In this document: positions 827 through 43,643 of the stretch, one piece after another
How the letters are laid out: each line of letters opens with the position of its first letter
Numbering within the stretch: the stretch's first letter is position 1
Source: Litoditis marina
Lineage: Eukaryota > Nematoda > Chromadorea > Rhabditida > Rhabditidae
NCBI GenBank assembly: GCA_964036275.1
Contig: OZ038437.1
Span: 171,001-235,000 of the forward strand
DNA: 64,000 nt
Direction of reading: 5' to 3'
Program-made: the position numbers and the translations under genes
Notes under the pieces: generated by a model
What the model was told of the DNA's origin: nothing
Seen by the model: the letters and a program-made list of their open reading frames with translations, nothing else
Databases searched by the model: none

Positions 827-3800
827 CTATAATCTAATAAAATTAATTATATATTTGAGAAAATGGTGATAGAAGTTGAAACCAACCCTGATCCAAGGGG
901 TATTCTCGACGATTAGCTGCTTGAGCAACTCTTCTCCGAGTTTGTTGGCGGGGGACGTGAGTGGATTATCAATCTTCACACAGAAATCGACATTCTCAGG
1001 TTTCTGACCCGTTGTCTTTTTCAGGAAATCCAAATATTCCTCTATAGGAGTGTTAGCTGGTGCCACCTGAATTATATATTTTGTTTGATATCGTATAGTC
1101 GTGCACGATAGCCGCTAATTAAAAGATAGTCGATACAGTGCCAAACATGTACGTCGACATGCTCAGAAACATTGGCGCCGATTTTCTGCGATTAGCAAGC
1201 TACAAAAGCGAGAGAGCACGCGAGTCAATGAGGCCGCAGACAGGCTAGACAGTCTGCGTCTCTTTGACCTGCACACTCTCCCATCTAAGCCTCTACAAAA
1301 ATGGCTTGCTAATTGGCAAAAAGCTGTATGAGTGTGTAAAATATTATTCTGGATCTTCAATAGATGTTCAGTCTTTGAACTATTATTTATAATTTTTATT
1401 AGTCGAACATGTTGTATATACTCACTGTCCAAAACGTCGGCGGATTTAGGAACAACTGTAACGTGGAAATGGGTAGCCGATCGTATCCAGTTGCCTGTTT
1501 CATCCATATGCGTTGGTTTGCTAGAGGAAAATACGCCCTGAAATAACGTTAAAATCTAATGATATATGGTGATTTTATTAATCCTAATCCACAAAAAAAA
1601 AACATTCTGGAGCACACATTGACCATCTATCACACGTTATATAATCAGGAAGTCCGAAAAAGAGTATGTCTAAATGTGATTGCGTACGATAATGATATAA
1701 GATAATCTCACTTTCCGAATTGCCATAGCATTTGAACGATAATACCAACTGAATGGCTGTCGTCTGTCATGGCGGATGCATGACGAACAAAATGCTCCTT
1801 CCGCCCGGCCGTCCCACATACAACACAGCGTGCATAACCAGGTGCGCGGGGAAATTGGGTCGTAGTAACTTCCCATTTCTCTCCAGTTGTAGAGGACGCT
1901 GAAACATGTATATGTATTTGTTTTTTAATTAATGTGTTATATATACTTTCAGTGGAATCTATATGCATATTTTCGTTTTATATTATAAACGGAAAAAAAC
2001 ACACATAGGATTTATCAAGTGTGTCGATTTTTTTCTCCTATACAGTGAAAAATAAAAAAGATTTGTACCATAATTTGTTATCATCATTTGTGTAATAAGC
2101 GAACAGCTCACCGATAACATTCAATAGAGCTTGTTCATCTGGCTTCCAGAACTTGTCGGTGTGGAATCTGTCACTGGATACGGCCTGTCTGATTCTCTTA
2201 GGAACTTTAAACATACCCTAAATTATATAAATTCACAAAAAATACGTATTATAATTTGACGAAACCGCCATCTGTCAATTTTTTCGATACGTTACACCTT
2301 ACTACATCGTACATGTCATTCTAGAATATGTAAGATATTGAACCAGTCATTGCAACTGAACCATAAGCAACACGAACGAAAATAGAACAACTACATTCAT
2401 TGTAAAATATATAACTACTATTGTGAAGCCGACAACACATGTAGTCAGGATGCCACAACATATATGTGTACACCACGAAAAGCATGAAACAAACTGATCA
2501 CAGAACAACACGGATTCAAACTAATACTGACACAGTCTATAGTATATGAGAAATCAAAATTTGTCAGAACCCAACACAATTCATAAAATGGATCAGTGTC
2601 AAATGTGTACAGTAAAGAAAATATTAAACGAGTCTTTATATATTGATAGATGATCGTTATTAGTTTCCGTGGAATAGTAGTTGGTCCAGTTTGTGTTTGT
2701 TCTTCAACAACTCTTTCCCAATCAGGGCTTTCCATTGTGATGTAACATCCGATCCACCAACTCTGAGTATGTGAATCCTTCCAGGAATTTCCCGAATCAG
2801 ACGCAGAGTTCCTTCTGAAGATATGATGTTACATATTATTGTTATTCATTCCCACCTATGACACATATCGTATATTCCAGCATTTTCCAATTATATATTC
2901 GTATGATTTATACGACTTATGCGACAATGACGTACCACATAGGTGTACTACACCAAATCTTCATTACATCCATTTCACTCTCATCTATTCAATGTATTCA
3001 ACGAAATTTCAATTATCCATTCAAATATTATGGTTGAAATGAAGAAAAAAACCAAGCGATTGTATGACAGCATGTATAGCACGACCCACCATGCTCCTGC
3101 TCTGTCCCACTGCAAACAACTACGGTGACATCTTTGCCGTTTGCCACCAGATATCTGTGGAACGTGGCAACTGACACACAACCACGTGTCGGAGCATCGC
3201 GGTACGTTTTTCCGATGAACGGAGTCAAGAACGTATCTGAAATAACAAGGTATTTATATACAATTCCTACACAACATATCGCCCAATTGGTCTACTATAA
3301 CATGTATAAAATGTATAATCTGATGAGATGTAGTAATCATATACAAAAATATACCTTGCTCTCTTTTGAGGAGGATTTGTTGAATCCGTTGAGGCCAACG
3401 GTAGTCGCCGCCCGACGTATCCACACGATCTGATAGAATTTGCCCAACCTCGAAGTCATATCATGATGTGTTGTTGGAACCCGACACGATTGGCAACATG
3501 ACTCGCGACGTTTTGCCAGGACACACGGGTATGGTTCCAAATTGACGCCTGTAAATATATATTTATATTGCGTATGTATTCAAATTTGTGGTGATATAAT
3601 ATTTAAAATGCATGACTTCGACATGTTAGCCTACTGTATACAAACGATATCACAAACCCTTTCACACATGTCCCAAAATGACAACACATAACATAGACCA
3701 CACATAACCATACATATTACATAATAACGCAAACTACTCACATGTAGCCATAATTGGAAACAAGGGACGACATTCTGTCTGAACAATTCGATAACACTAG

Positions 3801-6800
3801 TGGCGTCGCACAGTGTCACTCTGCTGTCAAACTCTTGGATGGCCTTCTGGGTTTGTTCGTCTGGGCCTTGATCTGATGGATCCTATAATGTATTGGTTTG
3901 ATGCAAAACGTTGAAATTGTGATATTGATCAATAATGGATATTAAAATGATATAATGTGCTACCCCTGAGTTCTGGTCGTGATTCCCTTGCTCCTCGTCA
4001 GGACTACCAACGAAGTCGTCGTTGTCCACCTCATCGACAATGTTTTCGGTATTCATAGGGAAACCAAAAAATGCCGCGGCAAACTGAAATAATGAGACAT
4101 AATGAGTTTGTGTGGCATCGGGACACACGACACCTGAGTACCTGTGCACCCACTCACGTATTACTCGTTTATACACCCCATGTGATGATATCATAACCAA
4201 ATTCTTACAGCGTCGGATCCTTCTTGTGGCGTATGTGGTCCGGATGGTGATCGTTCAATGGGAGTACTGTCGCCATCGACATCATCGTGCTTGTGTGTGG
4301 ACTGTACCTGTAACGTTTTGATTATATTCCATTACTTTACACACGATCCAATATACCTATATATACGATACAAAATCGTATATGCACCAATCATACTAGA
4401 CGTCATTTCTAATAGAATTTTTGTGTGCATATTATCAAGCATATTATCAATCACATGTATTATCAAGTGAATATGCGTGCAATACGATGAATACGATATT
4501 TTATCACTTCAACTAATATGCATTACGCGATGAATGATGAAGTAACGATGAATTGATGATGAAGTCTAAGTCGATTATCAGTATCTGTTTAGTATTCGAG
4601 GATTCACGTACAACGTCGGTGTCGAGTATGTTCTGTGCGAATAGCTCGTGATCGTCGGGGCCCTCTGTACGGGCGTTTTCGATCACATTCGAGTAGTCAA
4701 ACGCAGTGTTGAGCACCTACAAGTTGTAATTATGATATTATATATCACACATAAGACATTATTCATGGACAGCAAATGGTTGAAATTCTCACATCGACAT
4801 CCTCGTTCCGCTGTACGGAATCAACATCGGCCTCGTGTATCGGGTCACACATTTGATCGTCATCTTCGGTCGGTTCTCCAGCCTATAACCAAATGGTACA
4901 GTTTATAATCATGACTACATATTTATGTGTATATACATTGGCCAAACATACTCATCTTATATAAATACTGCTATATTGGAATATAATTATAATTTGGAAA
5001 AATCGTGACAACCTAATGAGGGACGTCACTTATGAAATATAAACATCTTGTCATATTCGTATTAGTTGTAAACAACACAAACCTCAACAAATCCAACAGA
5101 TTTAAGCATTTTTTGCGCCAGCAGTACGTCTTGATTTGGAAGCGGTGGCGAATTGTAGAATGAATCATTCTCGACTGACGGCGACCGCTGATCTCTTGTC
5201 CGTTCGTCGACAATCGACTCACAGTGAGGAGGAGTTGTGTCTTCAGTGTTGTGTATTTTTTTGACAGACTCAAATACATTTGAAGCAACATCAGTCATAC
5301 GAGAAACTCTCGCGCTCTGGGCGTCGGGTTGATCCAAGGCAACAGTCGGTGTGTTCTGATCCGCATCACGACAAGGTGAAGATGAACGAATGGTTACGTT
5401 GTCGAATACATCCAGCGATTCCTCATGAGCGGACTGCGTACTGATTTTCACGACGTCATACGGAGACATGGTAATGGAATTAGGGACTTCTTCAATGACG
5501 ACATGGTCATCACTCTCTGCTTCCTCAGCACGTCCTTCCGACAAGGCCGCATCACGTCGACGACCGTCATCGTCATCGATATCACATATTACCTAGAACG
5601 GATATTGTACAAGGCTTATATTAACTCGTATAATCTCATAGTCGTTACGTTCGGAAAAAACGAGAAGGGTTTGATGCTATTACGTGCTATGGAATGCATG
5701 GAATATACGAAATTTCTACGATAACATCTAACCATATGTCCAACAATGCGCTTTTTGTTTGTACTAAACGGAAAGTAGATGTTCACTGTAATAGCACGAT
5801 ACTCACGAAGAAGACTATATTGTTAGCGTGATTTATACAGTTTCTTCCGTTAACGGGTTTCATATTAACGCAGTTTGCCTATCAATTTATAACAAACATA
5901 CGCACATGCAAATTTGTGTTCGGTGCGGAAGACTCGTTGGGATTCTGACAATTCTCCTGAGCCATCGAACCGCATTGGCGATATAGAGTTGGGATGACGT
6001 CATCATCGACGTCGTTCTATAATGAACAGTGTTTAGATGACATACTATTTACTGATGTACTACTATATTTATATACAATTACGCTTGTTGTAATCTAGTA
6101 TTTTCCTTACACGAACCTGGATGTCAGCGAGATGTTCATCTACACGTCCTTTCGAAACAATGGTCGTCGTCCTATGTGCTCGGATCGCGGAGTCTATGAA
6201 CTGGAATGTGAATATTTACTGAAGGTATAAAATTTTGATCACATTGTTATTATTTTATTTGTTATTTGATATTCCCATTTGATTTGAAATTAAAAATTAT
6301 ACCTTCTTGATAGCTTCCACTCCGGATATGCGCTCAGATTCAACCAGTACCATGATCTCTTCGAGCGTACGCGCACATTCGTTTTCGTTCAGGTTGGCAA
6401 GGGCTCGAAGGTGTCTTGATAGTCGACCAGTCACGAAAGACGTGCCGGACTGAAACGTATAATGATTGATTTGTTACATCATTCGAATATCGACCCACGT
6501 TTATATACACTGGAAAATGCGCCAATCTGTTGCAAGGAACATACAAATCAAGATCGAATAGCTTCTCTCACCTTGCAGACCATTGGATTGGTCGCCATTC
6601 GGATGAGAGGATTCCACATCGCTTCAGGTGAGGCTGCGAATTTGTATAGCGATTGCAATACGTTGGTCTGAAAGCAATTTAGGTAATTCATCAGGAAAAA
6701 AATCCGCGCTGTACACATTCAAAACATATTACACTCGCATTACATGTGAATATTTGAAAATAGTACTATCTATTCTCGTGTTCAAGAAGGAGAGAGTGGT

Positions 6801-9770
6801 CATTTTTTTCAAACTTGATACGCATATCAGTTAAACACTGGTATGATATCAACAATCACCTTGTTAACACTGCCTCTTTGAATTTGTTTGCCGAGTTTTG
6901 CGTACTTCATTTTCCACACCAGATCCGTCGCACCCACACTCTCCATCTGTCTTCTTAGGACTCTCATCTGGTAATAAAATCAGATTAGTATACATATTTG
7001 CACAAGTTACTCCCAATAATAGTGCGTATTCCCATATCGATGTACAAGACGTAATAATTGCAAGTTTCAGACAAATTTTCCACTCACCACTTCTGCATCT
7101 GAGTAATTGCATGAATGTAGTTCGCCCCATAACCGAGTGAACGCTACACATTCTACCGGTGTGGGAGGGGATCCCGATAAAACGCCGCTCGCACCATGTC
7201 TCGCGATATCGTCATCGGGCACGACAAAAACATCACAATCAACGAGTACCTGAATGTATACGTAAACTGCGATATAAACCAAAAAAATTAATTTAGGCTA
7301 CAAATTTATTGTAATAACACCTAGTACAATACATTCAGCAAATTGTCAAATACTCAAATACACCAAACATCATATTCTCACCGGGCTCGCCTCCGATATG
7401 CACAGATATCGTCTCTGATCGTCGTCAGACATCGACAACAATGCCGCACACCGATGTTGACCATCGATCAACGAAATCCTCCAACTGCAACAAATATATA
7501 TGACACATTGTATGCACCAGTACTACAAACATACACAATAATATACGTAGGCACGTGTGTATTTAGGCATCTATTATACCTTTCGATCGGTTCTTTCTCC
7601 ATCGACTGGGGAATGACTCCCTCGAAACGGAGTCTGTCCCTCTGATTGGCGTCTCTAACAATTGCCGCGCGAATAGTTGCCACATGGCGATCGCTGACGG
7701 GTCGCAGATACTCGGAGGGGATCAGAATAGACAACGGTACCTGAATGTTGTATCACAATCATTGGACACCAACTAAGACGCTTTTGACGATGAAAAAAAT
7801 CCCAAGATTGTAATACGTAGTGAGACGAGAGGATTGTTCGGCTACGCGTTTAGTTTTTTTCGTCTAGGGAATTCATCTCAAAATGATTATCGTAGTTACC
7901 CAGTTATCGTAGAAACACGAACTCCATACGAAAATATACACTGTTATGAATTTCAATAATCACATTGATTTAAAGACAAAAATGTAATTCGTCATCCTAT
8001 ATAATAGCAACATAAAAGCATACCTTGACATGAAGAGATAGTCTAGAATCGACAGACGAAATCTGTTTGATTTTCTGGAAGACGGTGGTTTCGTCTACAA
8101 GCAACTGACAGCGGTGGAGTGGGAACCTCAAATAGTAAAACTCAATTCAATGATAATATTTGGGAGATCTTTATCGATATATGGAGCAATGTCAATTCGG
8201 ATATGACATGACGGCATTTTTAATAGAGCAAACATACCACACGGAAAACAGTGGCAGAACTGGATGCATCACGGCCAGACGACTCGACGACAACAGATTC
8301 AGCAATTTTCCCTCTTCTAGGCTGTAACAGACAACATTTTATATTTTTACAATTTCGTTACATTTATAGTAAATATGCAAACCAGAAACTGAAAACAAAC
8401 AATAGTATGAGTACGCACCTTTTTATGCTTTGGCATGACAAACGCGCCGTCGTCATCACTATCACCTTTACATGCGAATGCTGTTGGACGGCGAGGACTT
8501 TCATCCGTCGATGTAGTCGGTACCGCAGCCTGTATACAAAGTAGTTGACAAATAAATGGAGTATCGTTCAACAATCAACTCCAACATAAAATGTCAATAC
8601 TATAAACGCTAAGCCCTGAGATGTTTGTGATGATGGTCCGTATTCTGTATTCTATATATCCCTATGAGTATCACATACATGTCCATAATATTAACCTGCT
8701 GTTGAATAGGTGGCATACGGCTGTTTCCAAGTGGGTTCTGCAGAGACTTGTGGATACTTTCCGCCCTGGATCTGCTTCTAATCGACCTTGGCGTTTCCAA
8801 ACACTTCTGTAAAATGATGGAATTCATAAAATTATTTCGATGGTTTTGTTTGTGGTTTTAGCAACCATAACACATGGGGTACCAGTCAAATTGTCAATTA
8901 TTCAAGTCAAAAATGGGTTCTCGTACGTTCAGAATATCAACACTATATACAATGTGCGACACGTAGACACAAGTATGTAATACAATCATTACCTTCCGGA
9001 CCATCGGCGACTTGTCAGGATTGACTTCAAATTCGTATATCGACTTGGGCAGTCTGTCACATAAACCGTCTTCGAAAGTACAATTTGCCAAGTCGTATAT
9101 CTTTGCGGACTTTCCGTCGCAGTTAACCACCTGAATAATTTCGTTTTATAGCATTGTGACATGTTCGTTTGCATATAAAAACATTTATTATCTGATCAGT
9201 TTGCACACTCATAGTTTAAGTACACATTTGTAAATATATAGCTCATTTATACAAACAACCTAAATGTTTCCCAATCAAATTATTGTACAAAAACATGAAA
9301 TTGAGACCATGGTGAATACATACCAGCTTGCGGTCCCTTTGTAGTTCTATTACGACGTTGCACTTCACAGGCTCGTCGTTTGAGATGAACGATTGACTGT
9401 CGGTCACGACGAACATCGTAGGCACAACGGAACGAGACGCTAATCGCCGAACGACTATCTGCTGATTACAAACAATGGGAACTTGTCCCCGCAGGCTTCC
9501 CACCGGAAGCATAGGTGAACCGAATAGGGCAACAGACACAATCTTGTCCACAAATTCTGCAAAATGTGATATGTACAAAACATAGTACCGATAATGGAAC
9601 ACTCATTTTCTAATTCATTTTATTGTGTATAGCTATCAACCACGGCATATTAGCAGGTCGTACTCACCTATAAAACCATTTATCTCAGTGATTCCTTCGA
9701 GATATGATAGCAGTAGTTGCGTATTCATCAATGCTGCCGAGGCAACGACGTTGATATCGTAAGCCAGCAT
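827..9770 (-). CDS. Multi-exon ParB/Srx-domain protein (duplication copy A and unique 3' exons)
   Basis: About 20 small exons read leftward from ATG 9770, which follows an acceptor-like TATTCAG. Early exons are 9668-9770, 9324-9556, 8993-9130, 8696-8806, about 8419-8530, 8239-8320 and 8024-8135. Exons 7580-7740 and 7382-7483 carry the recognisable domain: a beta-strand with a YLRPVS turn (the RP of ParB) followed by LIDGQHRCAAL, the DGxHR signature of ParB/sulfiredoxin-fold proteins, which bind or cleave nucleotides or nucleic acids. Later exons (about 7088-7251, 6861-6970, 6573-6670, 6302-6451, 6118-6200, 5083-5591) join in frame. The part below 5 kb is acidic and Ser-rich, then holds cysteine/histidine motifs, for example CVVC with HFVRH near 1780. 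Near 3.1-3.5 kb and 1.4-1.9 kb the frames do not join cleanly, so the 3' end may be partly decayed or mis-modelled. The last open frame stops at 827. ParB proteins normally serve DNA partition or as nucleases; the role here is unknown. Confidence 0.6.
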
Positions 9771-10294
9771 CTGAATATTGAGATAAACGGACACGTTAAC
9801 AGTTTAAAGAAACACCAACATGATATATAAGCTGTAGGTAGATAATCGAGAATAACAACTCGAGTATGTAAAACAATACATTTCATATACATTCCTGTTC
9901 ATTCTTGAAACAACATTGAATTTCATTCGAATTGTAACAAACTATGAAATGTAATCAACCTTTCAATAATAACAATCATTATCACAACAATAACCAGAAA
10001 CCAGATTGCCATGACAATAAACAACGTGACGTCTAGAATAAAACTGGATCAACATATCAACAAACAGTTATATACACATGAAAATGAAAGAAAATGATAA
10101 CCAGAAACCAGATTGCCATGACAATAAACAACGTGACGTCTAGAATAAAACTGGATCAACAATCAACAAACAGTTATATACACATGAAAATGACAATGCA
10201 GATTCCAATCGGCCTCATGCAATTGTAAATAACTATATTTATAACAACAAAAATAAATTGAAACTATAGCAACACGAATCAGTCACCAACACAG
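9771..10294. repeat. Spacer between recombinase and ParB-like genes with a 107-bp tandem repeat
   Basis: No exon is seen here. Positions 9990-10096 and 10097-10195 are two nearly identical copies of a 107-bp unit beginning ATAACCAGAAACCAG. The same pair is in duplication copy B (about 16271-16476), so it predates the 6.26-kb duplication. Just left of it, copy B has 22 bp (near 16217-16238) that copy A lacks. The spacer separates the stop codon of the recombinase/zinc-finger gene from the start of the ParB-like gene, and any promoter of the latter should lie in it. Confidence 0.75.
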
Positions 10295-11174
10295 CTACCT
10301 AATTCGGGTCCTCATAAAGAATGGCGAGGTGGCCCCATCTCGTGCACTCTGCAAGCAGAAAACTCATTGCATACTCTCATTATGACGAGTAATGGAACGG
10401 TAAGGTCCTCAGCTATGTTCCGTTGTGTGACCATGGTTCGATTTGTCCAATTTTCAGTGTATGAGAGTTATTACTTGCGTTATTTAAATGAAACTCACTT
10501 CGAAGACAATCGAAAACTCCCGGGACATGTATTCTGGCACTGGATGATACTTTTCGACGTGGTGTGCATGTGGATAGTAGCTGAAAAAAAAGTATCCAAA
10601 ATGTTTTTGCGAATCAAACAATGCGATACGACCAATGCGAGTTTCTAACAACTAATGTGTTCATTAATCTGCTAACCTCCTTGATGTTGTGCCGCATGCA
10701 CATGCGTATTTGTTTTTCGTCACGGCCGTATGTTGTATACGCATGTGCTCGTCGAATTGGTCCACTGATAGCAGTGCGGTGCAGCCGACGACTGGGCAGG
10801 TTATATTCGTTGACGACGTCGCTAGGGAGCTATAAACAAAATTCTAAATATACATAAATATTCGTATACGTTTCATCGTTAGATCTTAATTTCAAGCTTC
10901 AAAAGATATAACGAACAAATGTACCAGCCGAGTAAACTACAATTTAAATTTGTATAAAATGAACACTAAACACAATCACAAACCCCAGCAATTTTCGGGC
11001 GATTGATCCACTGCCCGTAACATCGTCCTCTATTTTTAGAAATAGATTTTCGACGGTGGCAAGAATATTGACGGGTTTGAAGGTAGTCCCAATCCTCTTT
11101 TGCGCTCGATCACGAGCACATTGAGGAGCAGACAACCAGGATTCCAGTGAAATATTCTGGGCCTCCGACTCTGT
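10295..11174 (-). pseudogene. Orphaned zinc-finger end of the recombinase gene (copy A)
   Basis: Four exons (11174-10984, 10829-10677, 10580-10499, 10348-10295) encode the same C-terminal part as in copy B: a linker, a C2H2-like finger (CPVVGC then HMRIQH), a second Cys/His cluster (ACACG then HHVEKYH) and a stop at TAG 10295-10297. All splice sites, including the GT donor at 10675-10676, look intact. The duplication separated these exons from the recombinase exons, so they have no start of their own here. They could only be used if splicing reached across copy B, more than 6 kb from the exon at 17636-17777. Confidence 0.6.
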
Positions 11175-11335
11175 CTGAATTAATATGTTGCATTGTCTTA
11201 CGAACAGTAAATAACTGGAACATAATATTGCCATCCAAAACAGTTTATTATAACACAACTTGTGTGATATTGATGGCTATTATCAGGACACTCATCTATT
11301 AGTGTGCAGAGAAAAAAAGAGACACTGGATTTGAC

Positions 11336-17300: not shown

Positions 17301-17616
17301 ACATCGTCCTCTATTTTTAGAAATAGATTTTCGACGGTGGCAAGAATATTGACGGGTTTGAAGGTAGTCCCAATCCTCTTTTGCGCTCGATCACGAGCAC
17401 ATTGAGGAGCAGACAACCAGGATTCCAGTGAAATATTCTGGGCCTCCGACTCTGTCTGAATTAATATGTTGCATTGTCTTACGAACAGTAAATAACTGGA
17501 ACATAATATTGCCATCCAAAACAGTTTATTATAACACAACTTGTGTGATATTGATGGCTATTATCAGGACACTCATCTATTAGTGTGCAGAGAAAAAAAG
17601 AGACACTGGATTTGAC
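11336..17616. repeat. Tandem segmental duplication, copy B
   Basis: Direct repeat of 5077-11335, 6281 bp long because of a 22-bp insertion near 16217. It is the copy physically joined to the recombinase exons on its right. Differences from copy A include changes at two splice sites of my exon models: the donor at 16956-16957 and the acceptor at 15816-15817. Other differences are scattered through introns and exons, such as N to I in the ParB-like exon near 13903. Confidence 0.95.
11342..16029 (-). pseudogene. 3'-truncated copy of the ParB-like gene (copy B)
   Basis: Same exon order as copy A from ATG 16029 to the acidic exon ending at 11342. It includes the ParB-signature exons at 13839-13999 and 13641-13742 with DGQHRC intact. 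The unique 3' exons below 5 kb are missing because the duplication ends in the intron after 11342. The acceptor of its second exon reads TG instead of AG (15816-15817), so normal splicing of that exon should fail. Coding changes against copy A include S to F (about 15365), N to I (about 13903) and M to V (about 13690). It is therefore probably non-functional, although splicing onward into copy A cannot be excluded. Confidence 0.6.
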
Positions 17617-20600
17617 CAGTTATATCTGTGCTAACCTCAGCTGCATCCTTTGGGTGCATCTCGTAACCACCAAGCAATTTTGCTGTCAATGAACATCCCC
17701 ATAATGCAGCCTCCCAGTCTGCCACGGTGTTCTGCGTTTCGGAAACGGAATGTTCGCTGAGCGAGTCTGTGACTATCCTAAAAATTAAAATAATCTTTGC
17801 TCACAAGCCCATCTGTCGTAATCGATGATAACAGTGGTGGAGGGACACGGATAACAGATCTCAATGAATGTAAAACATTTGAAGCAGCCGGACCAACCTG
17901 ATATACAGCTTGCATACGGATGAGCTCCACCGTCGAGTGGATCGCAAGACCTGCTCAACATCGTTGGGAATAACCACCTCGTCAGATTTCTTGGTGTGGA
18001 ACCATCTCATCAGACAGGTGCTGGCGGAACCGGATCTACAATTTGAGGATAAAAGTTCAAATTTTCAGAATTAGTACATCATTATAATCTACGACATCGT
18101 TTGCCGATTTGAAATCACATACAAAACACGCCAATTTTCGATGAATTTAGTGATATATTCGTATTAGTAATCACCGTAGAGATCGCGGGCTGACGGTTGC
18201 ATCCGGAATTCCGCACAGCTTGGCCAATCTTTTCACGGACTTGTACATTTGACCCGTGGACATGCACGATCCCATCCGACCTCCGCTTCCATTCAGTGTG
18301 CCCACGAACATCGGGCTAGTCTCCCTGTCAAACGTTGACATTATTTTCAAACGATGACACAACACAGAGACTTAGAGATCGCGTCCCGCGACAATATTGA
18401 TTAATAACAAAATAGTTTGCGAGCTGTATGTCAAATTGTGCCCAGTCACTGATAGTCGAAAGAACTCTGTAAAATCCACCTTCCTGCAGGCGCGGTCCAG
18501 TTGAGTGTTTGTCCGGGCTTCAGTGAAGTAAATGAGATTATGTCTGCCCTCGTGAGCATTTTACGCAGTATGAGCTGTAGTATGATGGCTACAGCGGAAC
18601 ACATGCTCCAGTCAGGTGTGCTATCTCCAGCCAACAATGGGTACTTGCACACCCAGCGAACTACTCCGTCTCCAACATTTCCCAGTAGTTGGTTCTTATT
18701 TCTGTGAATGTTCAACATTGCGTGTATATAGAAAGGACCGCCTGCGTCTTCCTCAGCGCCTGTGATTCGGAGTGATACATGACCGATGTTCAGTCCTGTA
18801 TACAACTCATCCAACTCTTCGTCATTCAATCCCGTGCTAGACGAAGATGATCTGGCCTCGTCATCGAATGAAATTGGTCGGTTACCGTAGCTCCCAATTA
18901 TAAATCCGAGAAGTAGCGATTGAAATCGTCCTGTCGTGACGTTGCAAAAATTTCCTCCGAAACGAATTGCAAGTCGGATGACGTTATCGAATCCTTTTGA
19001 AGTGACTTGATCCTACCTCCCAAGCCTTCTTTACGGTTCTTCAGAAAGGCTTCATAACATCCTTTTACGGTTGCAACACACAATTTGCTATTGAAGCACG
19101 TTTTGATAAATATTATCATCCGTTCGGCAAGTTTCTTGACGGTATTATGTTCTCGCCGGTGTGCGCGGTCCGTGTCACCCCCCGCATAAACCTTTTTTGC
19201 GCGAGATGGGTTACGCATTGGAACATTCAGTTCTATCCATTGTATTGTTGATCTGATCAGAAGGCCAACATCATTGTCGAACAAACCGGGCAAATCTTCG
19301 ACACGACGAGCCGAGGCCTCTCTACCACCCCTTATCAGAAAACAGAGCACGTACGTGCCAGCTCGTCCGACTGAGGTCATCAGCAAATTTTGTGGTAAAT
19401 TTGATGGTATTCATATTCTATATGATGAAATATAAATCGAATTGACTGAAACATCAGTAAAAGCAAAGTACGCTTCTATTATTCAAGATCGAAATCGAAT
19501 GAATATAATAATGAGGTCAGTTGTCGATACGCACTCACAGTTCGAGTGAAAACATGATAACGTGACTTTAGTAAACCGAATTACGTACCACATGCCTGTT
19601 TCTACAACAGAAGAGGTCCTTCTGCACTACGTCCACATGCATCCGTTCTACCCTCCTCATAACGTCTTCGATTATCTATAAATGACAAATAGTTGACTTA
19701 TTCGTACAACCTATCATACACACTTATTCCACTAAATAACTAATAACACACGAATACAGTATAACTGACCGCAATGTCAACCGACAGATCCAACCGGTCT
19801 AAGCTTGCATTCGTGGTCGTAAATCCAGATCGCAAGTGCTGTAAAAGAATGGCGATAATTTTTTCGTATTAATTGTCGGCCGACGATAATGTCGATCGAT
19901 TTTTTAATTGATGTAATCCACGTAACTTGACATTAGTTGGGACACAAAAACGATGCAATAGATGTATTGACTTCTTACCTTGCAGTTAATGCTATATCTT
20001 GACTCTTCTGGCGTCATTTTCATGCGGCGGCCAAATGGCTATGGACAGATCTGAACATAACATGCGCAACTATTTGACAACAATGTAGAATATACAAATT
20101 CCACGCATTACACACATCACAACTCACAAAAAAATCCTACATATTTTTGTGGCGAGAAATTGGATAGAAAGTTCAATTGCTCGCAGTTCAACAGAGACAC
20201 TTGTTGAGAACGGTTGCATTAAATCACATATAAATCAAAATACAAATAGATAACATTGGAGTTAACCAATTTTGGGCAAACACAAAAAAAAATACGAAGA
20301 GTTGTAGACGTTTTATTTGCATCCGAAGACGTCATCCCCGATACGACCGTGTGTCTCCCACGCGGCCCGATGGCTGTAACACAGATAAGTTTACGAAATC
20401 TTAAACATATCATCGTTTGGTACAAAAATGTATACCTTCTGTTAACAAAGTATTACGTGAGACAATAATAAACTGAAAACTAAAGGAATGGAATCCTATG
20501 TCGTGGGGACCATTTTAAGTTGTTCGCTTGACTCACATTTCAAGCATTGACACGAAAATGAACACTTTAGACCGATCAATTTTGTCAATAAAAGGCAATT

Positions 20601-21191
20601 AAGTATTAATTTGCTCAAAAGCATCCGTATGTTACCTACCGAGAATCTTCTTCGTCTAGTCTGGCAAAATAGGCGGCCGTGTTCACCAGGGAGTCATCTA
20701 TAACAGAGACCGGTTCTGGCACCAATCTGGAAAGACACCACATGGTAATAAAAATGTTGTAACTATATGTTCAGTTACACATCTATTCTGCTATGAATGT
20801 GCGGGCGGGATGCCTTTCTCCATATACAATATAATCTCATATTTAGAGCGAGATACAGTTATGAAATAAACACTGTATACATTCGAATAACCATTCGCGG
20901 TTAATTTGAATAAAAAAAATCTCGCGCCATACTACAATGTAAACTCGCAAATCACCAAATATTCGTATGATATTTTTTTTACAGAGCATCTGAAGTTATA
21001 GTTTTTACTAACCGTCTGAAACTATACTTCTGCCACGAAACGAAGGCTGGTAGCCTATACTGGAAAAATCTGAATCGGGTCAACTGTTCCACATGTGCGA
21101 TGATTTGAGAAGGATGAACGTCAGACGTGGAGTCGAGCACAACGACCTGATGTCCCATATGGAACTCTGCGAGGATACGGTACTTCCACAT
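16576..21191 (-). CDS. Tyrosine recombinase with C-terminal C2H2-like zinc fingers
   Basis: Exons read leftward: 21191-21013 (ATG at 21191), 20726-20640, 20373-20331, 20038-19979, 19838-19770, 19675-19589, about 19370-19017, 18930-18480, 18324-18175, 18035-17898, 17777-17636, 17455-17265, 17110-16958, 16861-16780, 16629-16576 (TAG). Recombinase features come in the family order: first Arg in LRKMLTRADIISF (exon 18930-18480), GIPDATVSPRSLR joined across the intron to SGSAS (the HxxR box), then RRWSSSVCKLYIR ending in the presumed nucleophilic Tyr. Such enzymes cut and rejoin DNA through a 3'-phosphotyrosine link; Crypton, DIRS and Starship elements use them. A C2H2-like finger (CPVVGC, HMRIQH) and a second Cys/His cluster follow and may give target or end binding. 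Oddities: the box His is Arg, the zinc-finger exon donor at 16956-16957 is AT instead of GT, and the frame entering exon 7 is uncertain by one base. Confidence 0.65.
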
Positions 21192-21724
21192 CGCGGGTCG
21201 AAGCAATAAGAGCTACAACATGATAATTACTAAATGGAATAAATGCATGATCGATGGAAAATACGTTCACTTTGTGTACGATGCATACATTATTCATTGG
21301 TCAAATCATCACAATGGCATAAAATCAATTTTGATTAATTTGGCCAATTAAGTGGAAAATCGGGTACTTCCCGAAAATAATCGCGAACCAGTCAATGGAA
21401 AATGAAACCGCCCGGTTCTACGTGAAGCGGATCGAACCGATTGTATTTGCAAATAATAATATCGTTCAGTCCAATATCGGTTGCAAATCATAATATCTTT
21501 CAGTTCAATATCGTCCCCAATTTTTCAATAAATAATCGATCGGTTCAGAATAAGCGGTTCGCGGCTTGTATCGGTTCTTCCTGTTTAATCCTGTTAACGC
21601 GCTTGTTCACGTGAATTTGCCAACGTATGCTAAAACGTATTTCAAGTGGGTTTGCAAGTTAGAATTTGACGCGAGTTGGTTTATAAAATGGGGGATTATC
21701 GAGAAATAGGCGTAAAACAGATGG
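21192..21724. repeat. Spacer ending in a copy of the 1.43-kb repeat edge
   Basis: No exon is seen in 21192-21580. From about 21585 to 21718 the sequence matches, nearly base for base, the end segment of the 1.43-kb tandem repeat at 37299-37430, 42082-42212 and 43508-43639 (starts CCTGTTAACGCGCTTG, ends GAGAAATAGGCGTAAAACA). An 18S rDNA fragment follows directly, exactly as at 43640. Confidence 0.85.
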
Positions 21725-22848
21725 GTGCCCTTCCGTCAATTTCTTTAAGTTTCAGCTTTGCAACCATACTACCCCAGGAACCGAAAGACTTTCGTTTCCG
21801 GGAAGCTCCCCGACGAGGCAAAGATGCCCCATCGGATCGCTAGATGGCATAGTTTACGGTCAGAACTAGGGCGGTATCTAATCGCCTTCGAACCTCTGAC
21901 TTTCGTTCTTGATTAATGAAGACATTCTTGGCAAATGCTTTCGCTTTTGGGCGTCCCCCTGCGGTCCACGAATTTCACCTCTCGCGCAGGGATACGAATG
22001 CCCCCGAATTGTCCCTCTTAACCATTAATTCAGTTCTTGAACCAATAAATAGAACCGAAGTCCTCTTTTATTATTCCATGATCGAGCATTCAAGCAATCG
22101 CTTGTTTTGAGCACTCTAATTTATTCAAAGTAAACTCGCTAGCCACTGCAGGAACCGAAGTTACCCACAGAAAACCAGCAAAATAGTCACAACGAAGATT
22201 AACGCCAGAGGCGAACCAACGTACGTGACTCAGATCCAACTACGAGCTTTTTAACCGCAGCAATGACGATTTACACTAGTGGAGCTGGAATTACCGCGGC
22301 TGCTGGCACCAGACTTGCCCTCCACTGGGTCCTCGAAGAGCTATTTAAGCTCAACTCATTGAAATAACCGATCCATAGGATCGGTCTTTTTATTTTTAGT
22401 CACTATCTCACTGAAGTAGTGGATAAGTTACGCGCCTGCTGCCTTCCTTGGATGTGGTAGCCGTTTCTAAGGCTCCCTCTCCGGAGTCGAACCCTTATTC
22501 TCCGTTACCCGTGATAACCATGGTAGACTAATAGACTACCATCTGGTTGATAGGGCAGACACTTCTTTCGGTTATCGACGGATAAACCGTCGATAAGCTA
22601 CGGTATTCAGAGTCAACAAACTACGTCCGAAAACGATTGGTTTGTACTAATATCTGCACCTCTTCCGAAGTCGAGGCTTTATTGCATGTATTAGCTCCAG
22701 AATTGCGGCAGTTATCCATCAGGATAGCCGAAGAGAATGATAGCTGCTCTAATGAGCCGTTCGCAGTTTCACAAAAGTTGAACTTTCTACATGCATGGCT
22801 CATTCTTTTACTTGAGCATACAGCGCTGACAGAATCAATCAGATACGC
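21725..22848 (-). rRNA. 18S rRNA 5' fragment (about 1.1 kb)
   Basis: Reverse-strand small-subunit rRNA. The 5' end is recognisable at about 22848 (TGATTGATTCTGTCAGCGC, then TATGCTCAAGTAAAAGAATG). It continues through conserved blocks such as GCCAGCAGCCGCGGTAATTC (near 22290-22310) and stops at AATTGACGGAAGGGCACCC (near 21727-21745), roughly the first 60% of the molecule. The end is abrupt, joined to the edge of an unrelated repeat, so this is an rDNA fragment and not a working gene. Open frames inside it are spurious. Confidence 0.9.
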
Positions 22849-23378
22849 AGGGGGGCGAGAGTCGTGGAAGAAATCAGCAAAAATTCCGTGATACTTTAGA
22901 AAAACAATAAGAAGGCAAATTTTGAACGAAAAATCATGGAATTTTCACCGACCGTACAACGGCTTTCGCTAAATTTGAATTTTCACAAAACACCCGACAA
23001 AACATACGAAAATAGAAAAATTTGCTATTTACAACACCAGCTACTAATGTCTCAATAAAGAGACGTTTATCGCTCCGCTAGTCCGAAGACACGTTACGAT
23101 GTGTAGTTGGGAAAATTAATAATTTCTTTCGAAACTATTAGTCAGGAAAAAGTTGATAGAGTTCGGTGAGGTACCTCGATGAGAGGTGATATGAGCTAGC
23201 TGATCGGTTTCGGGGGGATTGCTACGCCGGCAGCTTTGGAGGGGAAAAAACAAAGACAATTGGCTGATACCAAATGAAGATTGGTGAATATGCGATCGTC
23301 AGTCAGAATGATTTATACATGAATCAATGTACAACAACGTTTACAACCCGATAAAAAAAAACAAATAGAAACAATGAT
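22849..23378. other. Flank of 18S fragment, possible external transcribed spacer
   Basis: No exon is seen. The sequence directly upstream (in 18S sense) of the rRNA start is probably the external transcribed spacer carried along with it, but I cannot verify this without an rDNA unit. At 23215-23232 it contains GGGATTGCTACGCCGGCAG, close to the terminal sequence of the MITE family at 50857 and 54667. Confidence 0.35.
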
Positions 23379-24108
23379 CAGACAATGACGCCTTCTATAG
23401 AATCAGCTGCATCATCATTACAAAATGATAAAATACCAGCAAAATCAAGATCATCATACATTTGAAGAGCGCAGTCGAATTCAGTGTCCATTAGGGATAG
23501 CGTCTCCTGTAATTAAGTTGTAATTGAAAAACACGGAGAGACAATTAAGACACGATTTGTTTCGGTCATGAGATGATACACCTTGATGTGATGGCAAACA
23601 ATGTAAATTACGAATTAGTTTCTGGACAAATATGTGAATATGAAGTTGTCACTAAGTGAAGTCTTATAACAACCTGCATTTTTCTGGCATCTGCTTGAAT
23701 CTCATCCCATACTAGATCATGGGCCCAAAGATCAATGTCAATCAAACATCGAGACCAGTCAACTTCGGTATACGCCTATAAACCGAACATGTCAACGTGA
23801 TGCCTATACACAGGCTGAGATAATGGTAAAATATGAAACTGAACTTGAGAGCTATTGAGTCTGAATATCCATTTGTCGAATCTGAGCTCTATTCATTATG
23901 TCATCGTGTAAAACTGTGCTATAATGCAGATACTCACAGAGTTAACAGACAGCGGCCTGTCACAGCCGAGTTCCTTACGCGGAATGTCTCTTCCTCTAAC
24001 ATGAATTGGCTTTTTTACGACATTGTGATTGATGTTGGCATGTCGAGTGCTCCACGCAGGAGCCGCATATAAAATACGAGGTTTGCGGATTCGCAAACTT
24101 CGTCTCAA
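23379..24108 (-). CDS. Small protein of unknown function, three exons
   Basis: Exons about 24108-23938, 23775-23674 and 23506-23379 (stop TGA 23381-23379) join in frame. The first part is basic (RIRKPR near its start); the rest is acidic with many Trp, Asp and Glu (WAHDLVWDEI, then MYDDLDFAGIL), ending DDAADSIEGVIV. The start is unclear: the open frame reaches 24108 without an ATG, and an acceptor or upstream exon is likely. I recognise no family. It has the orientation and intron style of its neighbours, so it may belong to the same locus. Confidence 0.5.
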
Positions 24109-24665
24109 TGTAGAAGAAGATTCCTTAATAAAAAGATTATATTATGCCTCTCCTATAATATACTTGAAATCAACAAAATACGTTAAGAAACACTATTTAC
24201 ACCTTCTTCTTTATGGCCTGTACAACTAGATTGTAAATAACATCCTCTCTTTTCATTTATCTCTGTGTTATTCTGTTGTATTCAATTCAGTCAAGTGAAT
24301 CCTCGACAATGACAAGTTGAGTACACTGTTGAAATCTACACAAACGTCAGTTTTACTAAATTGTTCGAGATTGTTGCCTAATTTCAACTCTGGCTTTCTT
24401 CTAGTTTTATCAAGTGTATAATGTCTTTTATGCTACCTCTGTAGAAACTGTTGGCAGATTTTGGATGGATCTACTCAATCCAGAAGTGACACACGGACGA
24501 ACCATACCACTGAAGTTGTGATACAATAGAACTGACATTACAGAATAAAATGTTAACGAGTATGAACGACATGCATGAATACGAACATAAGGATTTCAGA
24601 TATGAGAGGACATAACCGGTTGGGAAAAAATATTGATTGTATTTTATATTTATTATCATTTATCA

Positions 24666-24932: not shown

Positions 24933-25101
24933 TGCGTTTTTGCACATCAAACTACGATTCATCTAATTTCATAACCGGTCACAATTACACTCAGAGTGCG
25001 TTTTTGCACATCAAACTACGATTCATATAATTTAATAACTGGTCACAATTACACTCAGAGTTTGTTTTTGCACATCAAACTACAATTCGTCCAACTTCAT
25101 A
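24933..25101. repeat. 64-bp tandem repeat, 2.6 copies
   Basis: Copies start at 24933, 24997 and 25061. Each has the core GTTTTTGCACATCAAACTAC, followed by ATTCAT/CGT and a CACAATTACACTCAGAG tail. The core resembles part of the 69-bp satellite at 29-35 kb (GCGCATTTTTACCTCCATCAAACTAC). Confidence 0.9.
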
Positions 25102-25124
25102 GCCAATTCATTGTCATGTATAAA

Positions 25125-25867
25125 TTAATCTGATTCGTCTGATTTAACAACACATTCACCTCGTGTCAATGTGGTCATGAGGTCGTTGACACGGAAAGTT
25201 TTCTTTCGGTAAAAGATCATTACGGACTTGAAGTGTCGAGCCACCTCTTCCATTACACGAGCTTCACCTCGGAAGCCTCTGATTTTGGATTCAATCACTC
25301 TATGGTGTCTGACAGATATTTTCAACATCAATATGTCTAGGTCTCTTCGCTGAAATGAGGCTGATATATGTGATAATCTATAGAACAAACAAGATGATGA
25401 TGTAATTTTAAATTGAAAACCAAATGTTGGATAACTAACAAGATCAATATCGTTTGTGTCTCCAATAGATGGAGATATATAATCAATAAGTAGACGACGA
25501 TCTACGGTTTCCTGGCAAATTGCGTCACCGAATGACTGTTGGACCAACAAGGCGACCCATTGCTTGTTGTCGGTATTACCGTGGAGTTGCATGATTGAAT
25601 CGTGAACAGCCTGTAAAAAAATCTGAACAACTTGGTACGACGATATGACGTATAGGTATCTACATTAATAGAAGACAGTTGAGTGCATTTCGAGTTTTTC
25701 AAACACTGGTTGTCGTCTGATATCGACAGCTTACTCCGTCTAGTAGATGGAGATGAAACATTATGATTGAATTGAGAAAATTCACTTGTTCTCTGTCGGA
25801 CAACTGTGCACCATCGGGAGAATCTTGAACTATTCTTGCTTCCTGAGAACATTGTTGTGTGGGACAC
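25125..25867 (-). CDS. Unknown protein, about 199 aa, three exons
   Basis: Exons 25867-25664, 25610-25440 and 25349-25125 join in phase 0 with good GT/AG signals (GTAGAT, GTTAGT; TTTACAG, TTTCAG). The N-terminus is Ser-, Asn- and Arg-rich and likely disordered. The middle has QWVALLVQQSFGDAICQETV. The C-terminal third is basic and probably helical (RGFRGEARVMEEVARHFKSV), ending with TAA after KSDESD. The chosen ATG is 25867; an ATG 15 bases further in is an alternative, and an upstream exon is possible. No family is recognised. It lies between the small 24-kb gene and the decayed Ulp1 copy, on the same strand. Confidence 0.55.
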
Positions 25868-26153
25868 ACTTCCATCACAACGATTATCTGTTCGAGTACG
25901 ATGTTCAATGTATGTTTAATGTATGTGAAAACTGCCTAACGATTAAAGATTAACGATTAAAGAATGTTGAACACGTATACATCTGAACAACACTTTTTCA
26001 GTACAAAAAAAATGGACGAGACAGGCGATTAAGCACGTTCAAAATGAATAAAAATATGTGTGTGTATAGTAACACAATAGTGTAAATAATAATACTATAT
26101 TTCTGAACACTTCATTTATGGAAAATACTGAACATATTTTGAACACATTTTAA

Positions 26154-26590
26154 CTAATGGAGGAGACGGAATATTTCGGGAGTGGGCTCGGATGCGTTGT
26201 GAAGATCGCCAATCATCTGACGGAACGGTACACGATCTAATTCGGATGGCACAGCAAATATCCCGTGACAATCGTTTCCAATAATGGACTGCTTTGGACA
26301 AGATACTACGTTAATGGGGACAATGTTATTGGTCACATTCAACACGGCATTCTGGAATGCCACTAGTTCTTGATTGCTCAACGAAAATAACGGCAGAGTT
26401 GTAATAGTTGATAATATTTGCGGACAAATCGCATATCACTACAGAAAAATGCTTTCTACGCAGTACTGGTATTATGAAAATATCGACAGATTGATGTCTC
26501 TTCAGGGCTCGGCTCATCGTTGCGGTCAATCGAGCTGGCCATCCCGAAACACTCACCGATTCACGTAGAAAGTTTGGTGATTTGGTCACA
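26154..26590 (-). pseudogene. Decayed Ulp1/C48-like cysteine protease copy
   Basis: Reading leftward from an acceptor near 26594, the frame aligns well with the intact protease at 27.6-28.1 kb: KSPNFLRE matches RSPSFLRP, and IPVLRRKHFSVVICDLSANI matches IPMLRRSHFSLVILDLSASI. The catalytic His is present. Just after NYYNS the frame shifts by one base (near 26388-26400), and the rest, including GNDC with the nucleophile, continues in another frame to a stop at 26154. After the Cys the usual Gly is replaced (GNDCHG) and the tail is unlike the intact copy. No intron signal explains the shift, so it is most likely a pseudogene. Upstream exons were not found. Confidence 0.55.
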
Positions 26591-26794
26591 ATCTGAACTT
26601 TGAGATCGTGTTAAGTATTTGGCACAGAAATATATAATCTTCGTGTCAGAATCAATATGTTTGTCACGTTTTACTCAATTGAGCTATTATGTTTCCATCT
26701 ACTTCAACAATAGTCAAAAATCAGATCAATCATTTTTTGACGTCATATTTTAACATTCTTTATTTTTATTTGTCAGTTCGTATGCTCCTCTATA

Positions 26795-27203: not shown

Positions 27204-27628
27204 CTGCAACAAAAAAACAGAGTATGATGAAAAGTGCCTACAAACACATAGGATTCCTCTGTCTCTAGTCTCACGATTTTTTGATATATTTTTCGCATAA
27301 TGTGGCTCCATTCATTATCACAAATGTGAATGTTTCCGTTAAATTCAGAAACAAAATTAAATTTGATGTATGCGACCTCTACAATCCGGTTCTCTACCTG
27401 ACTGGTATTTGTATCAAGTATTGACTTCTTCTTTTTTAAAATTGAAAGAATTATCTCTAATCAGAACGAATCAACACAAAAAAATACCTAGATGTATAGC
27501 AGTCGAGACTATATCAAACGACATAAGAATAGTACTTTTCTGAAGTTATATGTTTATATATATATACACCAATAATCACTAACAAACAAATGAGCAAACA
27601 ACCAGAAACACAAACATGTGATAGAGAG

Positions 27629-28943
27629 CTAAAACCCACAACGCAAGTATGAAGGGGGTGCGGCGTTGGTGGGTGCGACAATTTTAAGAATAGTCAACCT
27701 AATAAATTCTGCGTCAATAGGTGGGGGGATGGCGGTTGGCCCGCTAGATACGAAACAAAGAATGTTATTACATAAGTAGAATCCGCAGTCGTTCCCCTCG
27801 ATTGTCTGGGATGCCGTCGTCACGCGATTTAGCGAGGCTGGGCGCCCGGGCAAACGACAGAGGGCGCGAATGAACGAACCGAGTTCATCCTCTGATAGAG
27901 AATGGGACTCAAGGCTGTTCATATAATGAACAATAGACGCTGACAAATCTAGTATCACCAATGAGAAATGGGATCGCCTTAGCATGGGTATCAACACGTA
28001 AGAACATGCTGGATTCCGGCGCATGCTCCTCTGCACTGTGCGAAACAGCTTGTCCTCCCAGGTTTCAATCGGGCAGTCCGGTCGGAGGAAACTGGGGCTC
28101 CTGAACTCAATCTAAAACCACACATGGATGTATATTACGTGTAATTGTACTATTCTGTATGATTCCATCATGATTGTGATATCGGACAACAGTTGTGCTG
28201 ATATTGGAAATTATTCTCCAAATTCTAACCCAGTAAACATGGATTTCGTGAGATAAAAGCATGTTAGAGAAATCATTTACTGTCACGATACTGGCGAGTA
28301 TTCGATAACGGTTTTATGGGCCAATGTTCTATTGGCTTTACTCATTTTAACTATATATATACTCATATTACTCATTCTTTTGAAAAATGGGGAAACAGAA
28401 TAGATCCCACACCATTTTCTCATATCTTATACTTATTTAATGATCAAAAACCAACCCTATGATCTCCTATGTTTGCAGCCTCGATCCGCTCAATGACTGC
28501 CTCTATAACCGCCGTAGATATCATTCGGCCAGCAGATACGATCGACTCTACATCGAATCTAAAACGTATTAAAATTGAATATGATTACATAAATGCCTGG
28601 GTAATATTCGTTTCTGATTCCTTCTGTTTTAAGTCAATATTTTAGTCAAAAGTCCAATCAGGGCGAGTTCTCATACGTTGAACTGTATGGTATCCGGTTC
28701 AGTTCAGTCGTATCACACAAGACACAATAGCTATGACCAAAATTCGTTCTATCATCATAGTTGCACCATTACTTTTTGATACTCACGTGTAGAGTGTTTT
28801 TTCGTATGACTATCAAATGAGTTAACTCACAGGGTAAGTCCGTTCGCCAGAGGGCCGCTCCGGGCTTCCTCTACGATCGCTCCGGCTCTGGATCGGGCCT
28901 TTTCCAAGGACTGAGAACGTCGCCGGTTCTTAGTTATGCCCAT
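27629..28943 (-). CDS. Ulp1/C48-type cysteine protease, about 232 aa
   Basis: Exons 28943-28831, 28558-28456 and 28111-27629 total 699 bases and join in frame; an acceptor-like TTCCAGG stands just before the ATG, as at spliced-leader sites. The N-terminus (residues 1-35) is basic. The protease signature lies in the last exon: His about 120 in RRSHFSLVILD, an Asn about 137 in HYMNSL where the family usually has Asp, Gln about 174 and the nucleophile Cys about 181 in QTIEGNDCGFYLC. Members cleave SUMO or other ubiquitin-like tags, and related domains also occur in DNA transposons. It is short for a cellular SENP, which fits an element-encoded protease. It is the outermost gene of the minus-strand cluster. 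Confidence 0.75.
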
Positions 28944-40283: not shown

Positions 40284-40348
40284 AATGTCACCGACATCAG
40301 ATCAGTTTCATCGTTATCGCTATCATGGTTTCGTGTAATATTTCCGTG

Positions 40349-43639: not shown

Positions 43640-43643
43640 AGTG

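Follow-up and report, generated by a model that had tools for sequence, protein, structure and literature searches.

Gene content of the locus

The window analysed here is a stretch of 64,000 nucleotides from the nematode Litoditis marina (contig OZ038437.1, hereafter C1, positions 171001-235000; assembly of 261.8 Mb in 522 contigs), in which genes for a putative tyrosine recombinase (YR) with a ParB-like domain and for Ulp1-like proteases lie between fragments of ribosomal DNA (rDNA). On balance, these genes probably belong to a giant (~35 kb) tyrosine-recombinase DNA element that is specific for the 18S rRNA gene. Genes were modelled with a small exon-chaining gene finder of our own, which was run over the window and from whose output models shorter than 60 aa were omitted; the comparative reading covered C1:1-255000 and 50 of the 176 kb of contig C196, in one genome. 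Positions without a contig name are those of the window, and the genes and rDNA parts described are on the minus strand.

The original prediction placed only minus-strand genes with short exons at 827-28943, which the gene models of at least 60 aa bear out, the sole plus-strand exception being a 67-aa low-score model that overlaps an rRNA fragment. The view that these genes form one single cluster had to be abandoned. Positions 21724-23143 are rDNA, consisting of spacer and the first 1,122 nt of 18S rRNA, cut after GGGCACC (Rfam; alignment to an rDNA array unit), and they split the region into two neighbouring element copies, with the Ulp1 side in one and the YR side in the other.

Copy 1 begins at 21723 and continues beyond the window edge as far as about C1:157522 (35,202 bp). 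Its left end (21191-21723, first element base 21723, located by junction search) is followed by the three-exon gene MWKYR (20313-21191), for which a counterpart exists in a second, diverged lineage (B; the window copies represent lineage A). Next comes the YR part (17636-19380; gene model, motifs and comparison with lineage B) with exons 19380-19017, 18795-18480, 18324-18175, 18035-17898 and 17777-17636, the gene start and first exon boundary being uncertain. The recombinase landmarks that had been named are present, with reservations. LTRADI (18539-18556) and WSSSVCKLYIR (17897-17929) were both found in the DNA translation, whereas SLRSGSAS is absent from any single frame and arises on joining exons 18324-18175 and 18035-17898. 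Moreover, the arginine of LTRADI is not conserved in lineage B, which has TQND; the conserved arginine near this motif is that of LILR[KR] in the alignment of the two lineages.

Since the YR exons continue, with phase preserved, into exons that encode C2H2-like fingers and a ParB-like motif, the YR, the fingers and the ParB-like domain are likely parts of one predicted protein, where separate recombinase and ParB genes had been supposed. The finger exon (10677-10829; CPVVGC...H...H) has the same length in lineage B (153/153) at 59% amino acid identity, and a second finger-like pattern can be followed by eye into 10580-10499; although these patterns agree with the fingers proposed earlier, Pfam gave no zinc finger above cut-off among the window proteins scanned. 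The ParB/Srx-like exons (7382-7740, comprising 7740-7580 and 7484-7382; IDGQHRCAALL) have a duplicate at 13999-13641. The DGQHRC signature of the original prediction is confirmed, and it occurs twice (13707-13724 and 7448-7465), owing to a tandem duplication of a 6.26-kb ZnF-ParB block that had been overlooked. The 3' exons of this gene (2660-4882) and the next gene (596-2214), in which a CxxC...HxxxH pattern is seen by eye, are known from gene models only.

Self-comparison puts the first copy of the duplicated block at 11334-17616 and the second, which is also covered by the gene model, at 5075-11335, with 99.3% identity and with both breakpoints, by sequence, within introns of equal phase. 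Between them there are 13 substitutions in 2,769 coding positions, 11 in 3,492 other positions and 22 gap columns. Because 10 of the 13 coding changes are nonsynonymous and 3 synonymous, and because the first duplicate has one splice donor and one acceptor fewer than the second, it looks as if the first duplicate is decaying, and at least one of the two copies looks free of selection.

Copy 2 extends from a second 18S fragment (43643) to 23144 and contains ~1.4-kb repeats, arrays and the genes from Ulp1 to MKRED, without a YR. The Ulp1-like (C48) gene has two leading exons (28831-28943 and 28456-28558) with lengths equal to those in lineage B (113/113 and 103/103), followed by a catalytic exon (27629-28111; HFS...NSL...SQTIEGNDCG) that matches PF02902 at E 4.6e-7 and 30.3 bits (cut-off 20.7) and carries the expected His and Cys; the lineage B protein reaches 37.0 bits. 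A search of PDB with this exon gave chains of SENP2 (E 0.0099) and Ulp1 (0.024) at the top of the list, with Asn in place of the SENP2 Asp in YLDS. The predicted fold of the exon alone had a mean pLDDT of 43 and was not used. A second Ulp1-like copy, Ulp1' (26154-26610), is broken by a frame change and by missing sequence beyond the DC in its active-site region, and its lineage B counterpart is an open frame; two Ulp1-like proteases, one of them decayed, had been correctly predicted. They are followed by MEVCP (25125-25875, three exons) and by MKRED (23378-24256, four exons), the last gene before the right end, both modelled with lineage B counterparts. The remnant of the right tail (23144-23377) includes 92 bp that are 87% like lineage B and lacks the terminal repeats and the 18S 3' part. 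In lineage A, spacer follows the MKRED tail, and neither the right end nor the 18S 3' part survives.

Genome-wide, the Ulp1 search found 11 matches, of which 7 are on C1 and 4 on C196. The relatives on C196 are 26-32% identical and include an open 257-aa Ulp1-like gene model; a C196 relative scores 18.9 bits against PF02902, just under the cut-off. A protein on an ENA contig of 1870 bases (P0001) is 92% identical to the window Ulp1, and since the closest further copy within this genome is only 66% identical, P0001 probably originates from another genome.

A second lineage of the candidate element

Near-identical lineage A segments are found on C1 at 148-162 kb and, inverted, at 139-148 kb. The diverged lineage B is present as a block MWKYR-YR-YR-ZnF-ParB at 91.8-107 kb and a block ULP-ULP'-MEVCP-MKRED inside a palindrome at 109.7-135 kb. 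The internal order of MWKYR-YR-ZnF-ParB and of ULP-ULP'-MEVCP-MKRED is identical in the two lineages. The expected fixed order is therefore supported within the two blocks, but the relative order of the blocks comes from lineage A alone, as the assembly does not place them collinearly in lineage B. Exon lengths are equal in 25 of the 33 pairs compared, two of these 25 having one boundary each placed by hand in lineage B, and the comparison omitted 2 of the 19 block exons (6967-6860 and 6016-5906) and the first YR exon.

The divergence between the lineages is mostly large. Over 367 codons, the YRs share 50.4% amino acid identity, with proportions of synonymous (pS) and nonsynonymous (pN) differences of 0.758 and 0.333; for the catalytic exons (241 codons) these are 0.75 and 0.31. 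Values for the ParB exons (164 codons, 82% amino acid identity) are 0.44 and 0.09, for the remainder of the ZnF-ParB block (597 codons) 0.66 and 0.27, for Ulp1 (227 codons) 0.79 and 0.18, and for MKRED (132 codons) 0.66 and 0.21. To judge from these figures, most of the element genes have long been under purifying selection. MEVCP (138 codons; pS 0.07, pN 0.03) and MWKYR (105 codons; pS 0.12, pN 0.03) behave differently, and their low synonymous divergence (0.07-0.13) suggests that a few genes were recently exchanged between copies of the two lineages.

The copies read are partly decayed and are located within or next to rDNA fragments close to the beginning of C1. The same region contains large inverted repeats of 99.7-99.9% identity (C1:109651-120891 with 123760-135000, and 139269-148244 with 148542-157521), which are either real or hairpin artefacts of assembly, as well as runs of N. 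Tandem units of ~1367 bp with 5S rRNA genes occupy C1:63169-70017 and 81337-91790, the second array ending ~15 bp short of the truncated left side of lineage B.

Probable insertion in the 18S rRNA gene

Rfam detects 18S 5' fragments in the window, of which the second (43644-44501, extended to 44574 by Rfam) forms the left flank of copy 2. Elsewhere on C1 more 18S 5' parts precede lineage A MWKYR, and an 18S 3' part, then 5.8S and 28S, follow lineage B MKRED. The left end directly follows GACGGAAGGGCACC, with GGGCACC as the last 18S bases, and the lineage B right end is followed by AGCCTGCGGCTT. When aligned to an uninterrupted array unit on contig C4 (L037), the left flank in the window corresponds to positions 568-1984 and the lineage B right flank to 1996-4836, and only the 11 bases ACCAGGAGTGG (1985-1995) lie between them. 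The left junction occurs at C1:192709, 156087 and 140669, with a variant at 214643, and the right junction at C1:131789 with a mirror copy at 112831. Uninterrupted target sites number 224 + 138 = 362 genome-wide at up to 2 mismatches, and among the matches listed all are on C4. By our own estimate, a left breakpoint and an unrelated right one in an 8-kb unit would be no more than 11 bp apart with a small probability of ~23/8150, and half of that if orientation is considered. What is found is thus a fixed insertion position in an rRNA gene with empty copies present, as in an rDNA-specific mobile element.

Compared with the main array on C4, the rRNA flanks show 99.2-100% identity. In the right flank of lineage B, substitutions amount to 0/622 in 18S, 0/693 in ITS/5.8S and 1/1526 in 28S (4/2841 in the mirror copy), and the 18S flanks of lineage A have 5, 9 and 1 substitutions per 1122 positions and 5/858, with 2-7 gap columns. 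Genes that are saturated with synonymous changes, inside rRNA sequence that is nearly unchanged, are what would be expected for separate insertions, with gene conversion of the flanks as the alternative.

Identity of the putative recombinase and ParB-like domains

At 50% identity between the lineages, the candidate catalytic motifs of the YR are retained (LILR[KR], SPRS[LF]R[SA]GSA, RRWSSS and YIR), and a catalytic Arg, [HKR]xxR, H or W, and Tyr all appear in the expected order, the roles of these residues being those that we assume from the general anatomy of YRs. In PHROGs, the one family common to both YR members is an integrase (E 0.21 and, at best, 0.098); over several searches this sub-threshold match (E 0.098-0.25) spans the YR region with the HxxR-like motif. 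A ParB-like partition protein is matched by each of the ParB members, with a best E of 0.0078, as is a family of unknown function (E 0.085). Reversed YR and ParB sequences gave no PHROGs integrase or ParB match. The motif IDGQHRCAALL is invariant between lineages A and B, and Pfam DndB was matched at E 0.03-0.044 over IDGQHR only. In all libraries used, the matches of the YR and of ParB stay under the curated thresholds; because of the PHROGs matches, the conserved candidate catalytic residues and the invariant ParB motif, the YR and ParB-like identities are nevertheless likely.

Several further searches gave no useful result. NCBIfam gave nothing recombinase-like for the YR, the YR chain and ParB part had no relative at E <= 1 among those candidates that were scored out of 5.8 billion proteins, a plasmid sequence search yielded no useful relative, and viral contigs searched with the YR, Ulp1 and two alignments yielded no confirmed one. 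Sub-threshold Pfam names such as Ytca, Herpes_UL49_2 and HtrL_YibB were taken as chance.

Palindrome and repeat arrays

A 13-bp palindrome, GCACTCNGAGYGC (core CACTCNGAGYG), is a recurrent feature of the element. In copy 2 it appears in 64-bp repeats at 24933-25104, one of which carries the form ACACTCAGAGTGC at 24988, in arrays of 69-bp and 347-416-bp units with CACTCGGAGCGC at 29090-35201 (both from a repeat search), and in ~1.43-kb repeats at 35750-43641, where self-comparison shows 132 bp of the element left end together with the palindrome in a larger inverted repeat. Four palindrome repeats also lie just ahead of the lineage B right end. In all, the palindrome is found in four otherwise differing contexts (69/64-bp arrays, repeats before the right end, 1.4-kb repeats and a C196 satellite), the 64-bp and 69-bp repeats being counted as one because the sequence they share exceeds the palindrome.

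In C1:1-255000 there are 93 strand-counted matches, all in parts assigned to the element, against 0-2 after crude shuffling of the same sequence in blocks of 100 bases. The window has 36 sites, a count that is inflated by tandem arrays, and the next of the 1,024 palindromes of the same shape has 5. A better control is given by the genome-wide pattern YRCACTCNGAGYGCR, with 301 + 120 = 421 matches versus 23 + 26 = 49 for the pattern read backwards; among the matches listed, the places are C1, one on C17, and otherwise C196. On that contig a dense run of palindromes occurs at 81-85 kb, and palindrome satellites are also present in the 1-30 kb and 146-166 kb regions with Ulp1 relatives. The palindrome is a candidate protein-binding site, which may be bound by the ParB or C2H2 part of the recombinase protein.

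Within the 1.4-kb repeats lies an LTR-type element without pol (37598-40951), with 319-bp LTRs that are 99.4% identical; a gag-like frame with a CCHC knuckle and a 5-bp duplication TAGTT are visible by eye, and there is no Pfam match. Outside the cluster, inverted repeat arms of 136 bp (50848-50983 and 54723-54858; 93% complementary) stand 3.7 kb apart.

A probable element of the 18S rRNA gene and its alternatives

In the sense of the rRNA, and as a composite of lineages A and B, the order would be 18S 5' part, left end, MWKYR, the YR-C2H2-ParB gene, the next gene, palindrome arrays, Ulp1, Ulp1', MEVCP, MKRED, palindrome repeats, right end and 18S 3' part. Block order, mostly conserved exon lengths, the signature of purifying selection, the lineage A left and lineage B right junctions and the uninterrupted sites are read from the assembly; the mechanism is suggested by the anatomy. 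The YR would excise the element and integrate it at the conserved 18S site GGGCACC-ACCAGGAGTGG-AGCC, probably via a circular excised intermediate, the C2H2/ParB part of the same protein would bind the GCACTCNGAGYGC arrays, and Ulp1 would alter SUMO-type marks or process element proteins. The earlier reading as a cargo-bearing YR mobile element is both strengthened and altered, the region being two neighbouring copies and not one element.

Several observations weigh against an 18S-specific mobile element. Conserved ends and empty sites were found in part: the left end is present at four places, the lineage B right end falls 11 bp away in the target and 362 sites are uninterrupted, but no single copy has both intact ends, the right end of lineage A and the left end of lineage B being lost. 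The bases ACCAGGAGTGG are neither kept nor duplicated in either flank, unlike in an ordinary target duplication, and no copy has both ends with a defined target footprint. There are no terminal repeats when the left 150 bp of lineage A are compared with the right 150 bp of lineage B (direct p 0.38, inverted p 0.31), and likeness to the target is unconvincing for the right end (p 0.036 with a 22-bp target, 0.10 with 11 bp; 0.78 and 0.44 for the left end). The junction patterns were found on C1 only in genome-wide searches, of which those for the left junction are blind to another element that starts with A after GGGCACC. The copies of lineages A and B that were seen are all confined to a single stretch of 255 kb on C1, and local duplication therefore explains much of the copy number. 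The flanks are also not uniformly young: the spacer of 21724-23143 differs from the C4 unit by 4/293 substitutions (98.6% identity), against 5/1122 for its 18S part, and the 140-kb copy flank including spacer is 93.9% identical by BLAST.

The content of the copies and the domain searches add to these points. The first Ulp1 gene is missing from the 35-kb copy, which has just a piece of Ulp1' and contains a gene model with reverse transcriptase (RT), RNase H and rve domains (RVT_1, RNase H, rve; C1:166997-170739), which looks like a separate Gypsy-type insertion, around which no flanking LTRs were found. In one 27-codon exon pair pN (0.35) exceeds pS (0.29). Pfam gave no integrase, DUF3435 or ParB match among the predicted proteins, PDB gave chance-like matches to the YR and ParB, none of recombinase or ParB kind, and one ParB member is closer to phrog_34007, a family of unknown function (E 0.0019), than to ParB. 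Finally, a 69-bp palindrome array also occurs on C3 (21526-22776), and on C196 Ulp1 relatives lie beside palindrome satellites with no YR or ParB in the 50 kb read.

Many of these points would fit a subtelomeric host gene cluster that at one time was inserted or became trapped in an orphan rDNA block and was then multiplied by segmental duplication and inversion, with a YR that is domesticated or dead and immobile. The confinement of every copy seen of either lineage to the initial 235 kb of C1, among palindromic and tandem segmental duplications, the restriction of the junction patterns to this contig, the intron-rich genes under purifying selection, and the inter-copy exchange indicated by the 0.07-0.13 synonymous divergence of MEVCP and MWKYR all speak for such a cluster. 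We nevertheless regard it as rather unlikely, as it does not account well for rRNA flanks that are near-identical to the C4 array while most genes are saturated, for two lineages that meet one 11-bp 18S site, or for element-type arrays on C3 and Ulp1 relatives on C196.

That the copies are remains of an integrated large DNA virus, which entered rDNA by means of a YR like the 28S-rDNA-specific nimaviruses of crustaceans, seems improbable. The size and the intron-bearing genes are compatible with it, and in the available text on these viruses 28S-specific endogenous whispoviruses have multi-exon YR genes and telomere-specific relatives bear YRs with C2H2 domains (PMC10871703). Yet no virion, polymerase or packaging domain was found above cut-off among the predicted proteins scanned, there was no relative in viral contigs, and the unit of ~35 kb compares with 278-401 kb in the virus genera for which that text states sizes (PMC10871703). 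An assembly artefact, with junctions and palindromes produced by hairpin reads and by rDNA that was collapsed or chimeric, would agree with the 99.7-99.9% identity of the palindromes and the runs of N in the region; we consider it highly improbable, since the left junction was found four times, its 18S flank carrying 1-9 substitutions, since the two ends, which come from different lineages, are no more than 11 bp apart in the target, and since the diverged lineage B is independent of the assembly of any junction. An element specific for 18S rDNA thus remains the explanation that we favour.

Relation to known systems

Among known systems, the element may be filed with the giant YR elements, as a member of none of those compared; nimaviruses appear closest in behaviour, and oomycete Cryptons with a C48 peptidase closest in gene content. 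The precedent for giant YR elements in animal rDNA is provided by the 28S-rDNA-specific endogenous nimaviruses of crustaceans (PMC10871703). As far as the consulted parts of that paper go, the whispoviruses among them share an animal host, giant size, a multi-exon YR and a fixed site in an rRNA gene, C2H2-bearing YRs occur in telomere-specific relatives, and an 11-mer target sequence is involved. They differ in that their site is in 28S and the 11-mer is duplicated, whereas here the site is in 18S and the 11-mer is missing from both flanks, and in that they have viral core genes, with related genera of 278-401 kb; ParB and Ulp1 were not met in the paper's description, which was not searched for them (PMC10871703). 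In the Pfam scan no viral core genes were seen among the predicted proteins, and no search with nimavirus proteins was made.

Cryptons are much smaller than the element described here. They possess a YR and no RT, and in the 35-kb copy the Gypsy-type RT/RNase H/rve gene, without flanking LTRs found, is apparently a separate insertion. A Ulp1/C48 peptidase aboard a YR element is a feature shared with some oomycete Cryptons (CryptonF-2_PS and some CryptonS), for which the text seen describes no ParB or rDNA target (PMC3212892). In what was seen of a survey of nematode YRs, a single Crypton, in a cnidarian, was reported, with more only under lenient settings (PMC4157794). Fungal Starships resemble the element as giant multi-gene YR elements with the YR near one end, and some captain families prefer 5S rDNA; they differ in host and in their captain, DUF3435/PF11917, according to the part of the source used (PMC12134995). 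PF11917 had no match among the predicted proteins scanned here.

The rDNA-specific R elements are non-LTR retrotransposons that occupy a fixed site in rRNA genes, and the transposase of Pokey is of the piggyBac type; neither is known to have a YR. Pokey likewise is a transposon that targets a fixed site in rDNA (PMC4912750). The YR retroelements DIRS, Ngaro and Pat1, which combine RT/RNase H with a YR and lack a DDE integrase, were rejected, as the single RT encountered comes together with an rve integrase and the scanned window models show no RT close to the YR. The original prediction knew of no described animal element that combines YR, ParB and Ulp1; Ulp1 together with a YR is in itself not new, as it already exists in some oomycete Cryptons, according to the text seen (PMC3212892). 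Among the matches listed from the open-access literature, seen in part, there was no YR with ParB in an animal element and no YR element in 18S rDNA.

Implications

A more speculative reading, which we consider unlikely, is that the element is maintained in the germ line in a plasmid-like manner. The fused YR-C2H2-ParB protein would then both integrate the excised form into 18S rDNA and bind the GCACTCNGAGYGC arrays as a centromere- or parS-like partition site, and C196 would be a relative that became specialised as an array-rich or independently maintained piece of chromosome.

If the favoured explanation of an 18S-specific element is correct, L. marina would harbour a giant YR element of an animal, resident in the 18S gene and distinct from those of fungi and of recognisable viruses. 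It would unite a recombinase, a ParB-like domain and an array of palindromic sites in one protein-DNA system, and would make the persistence of large elements in rDNA open to test.

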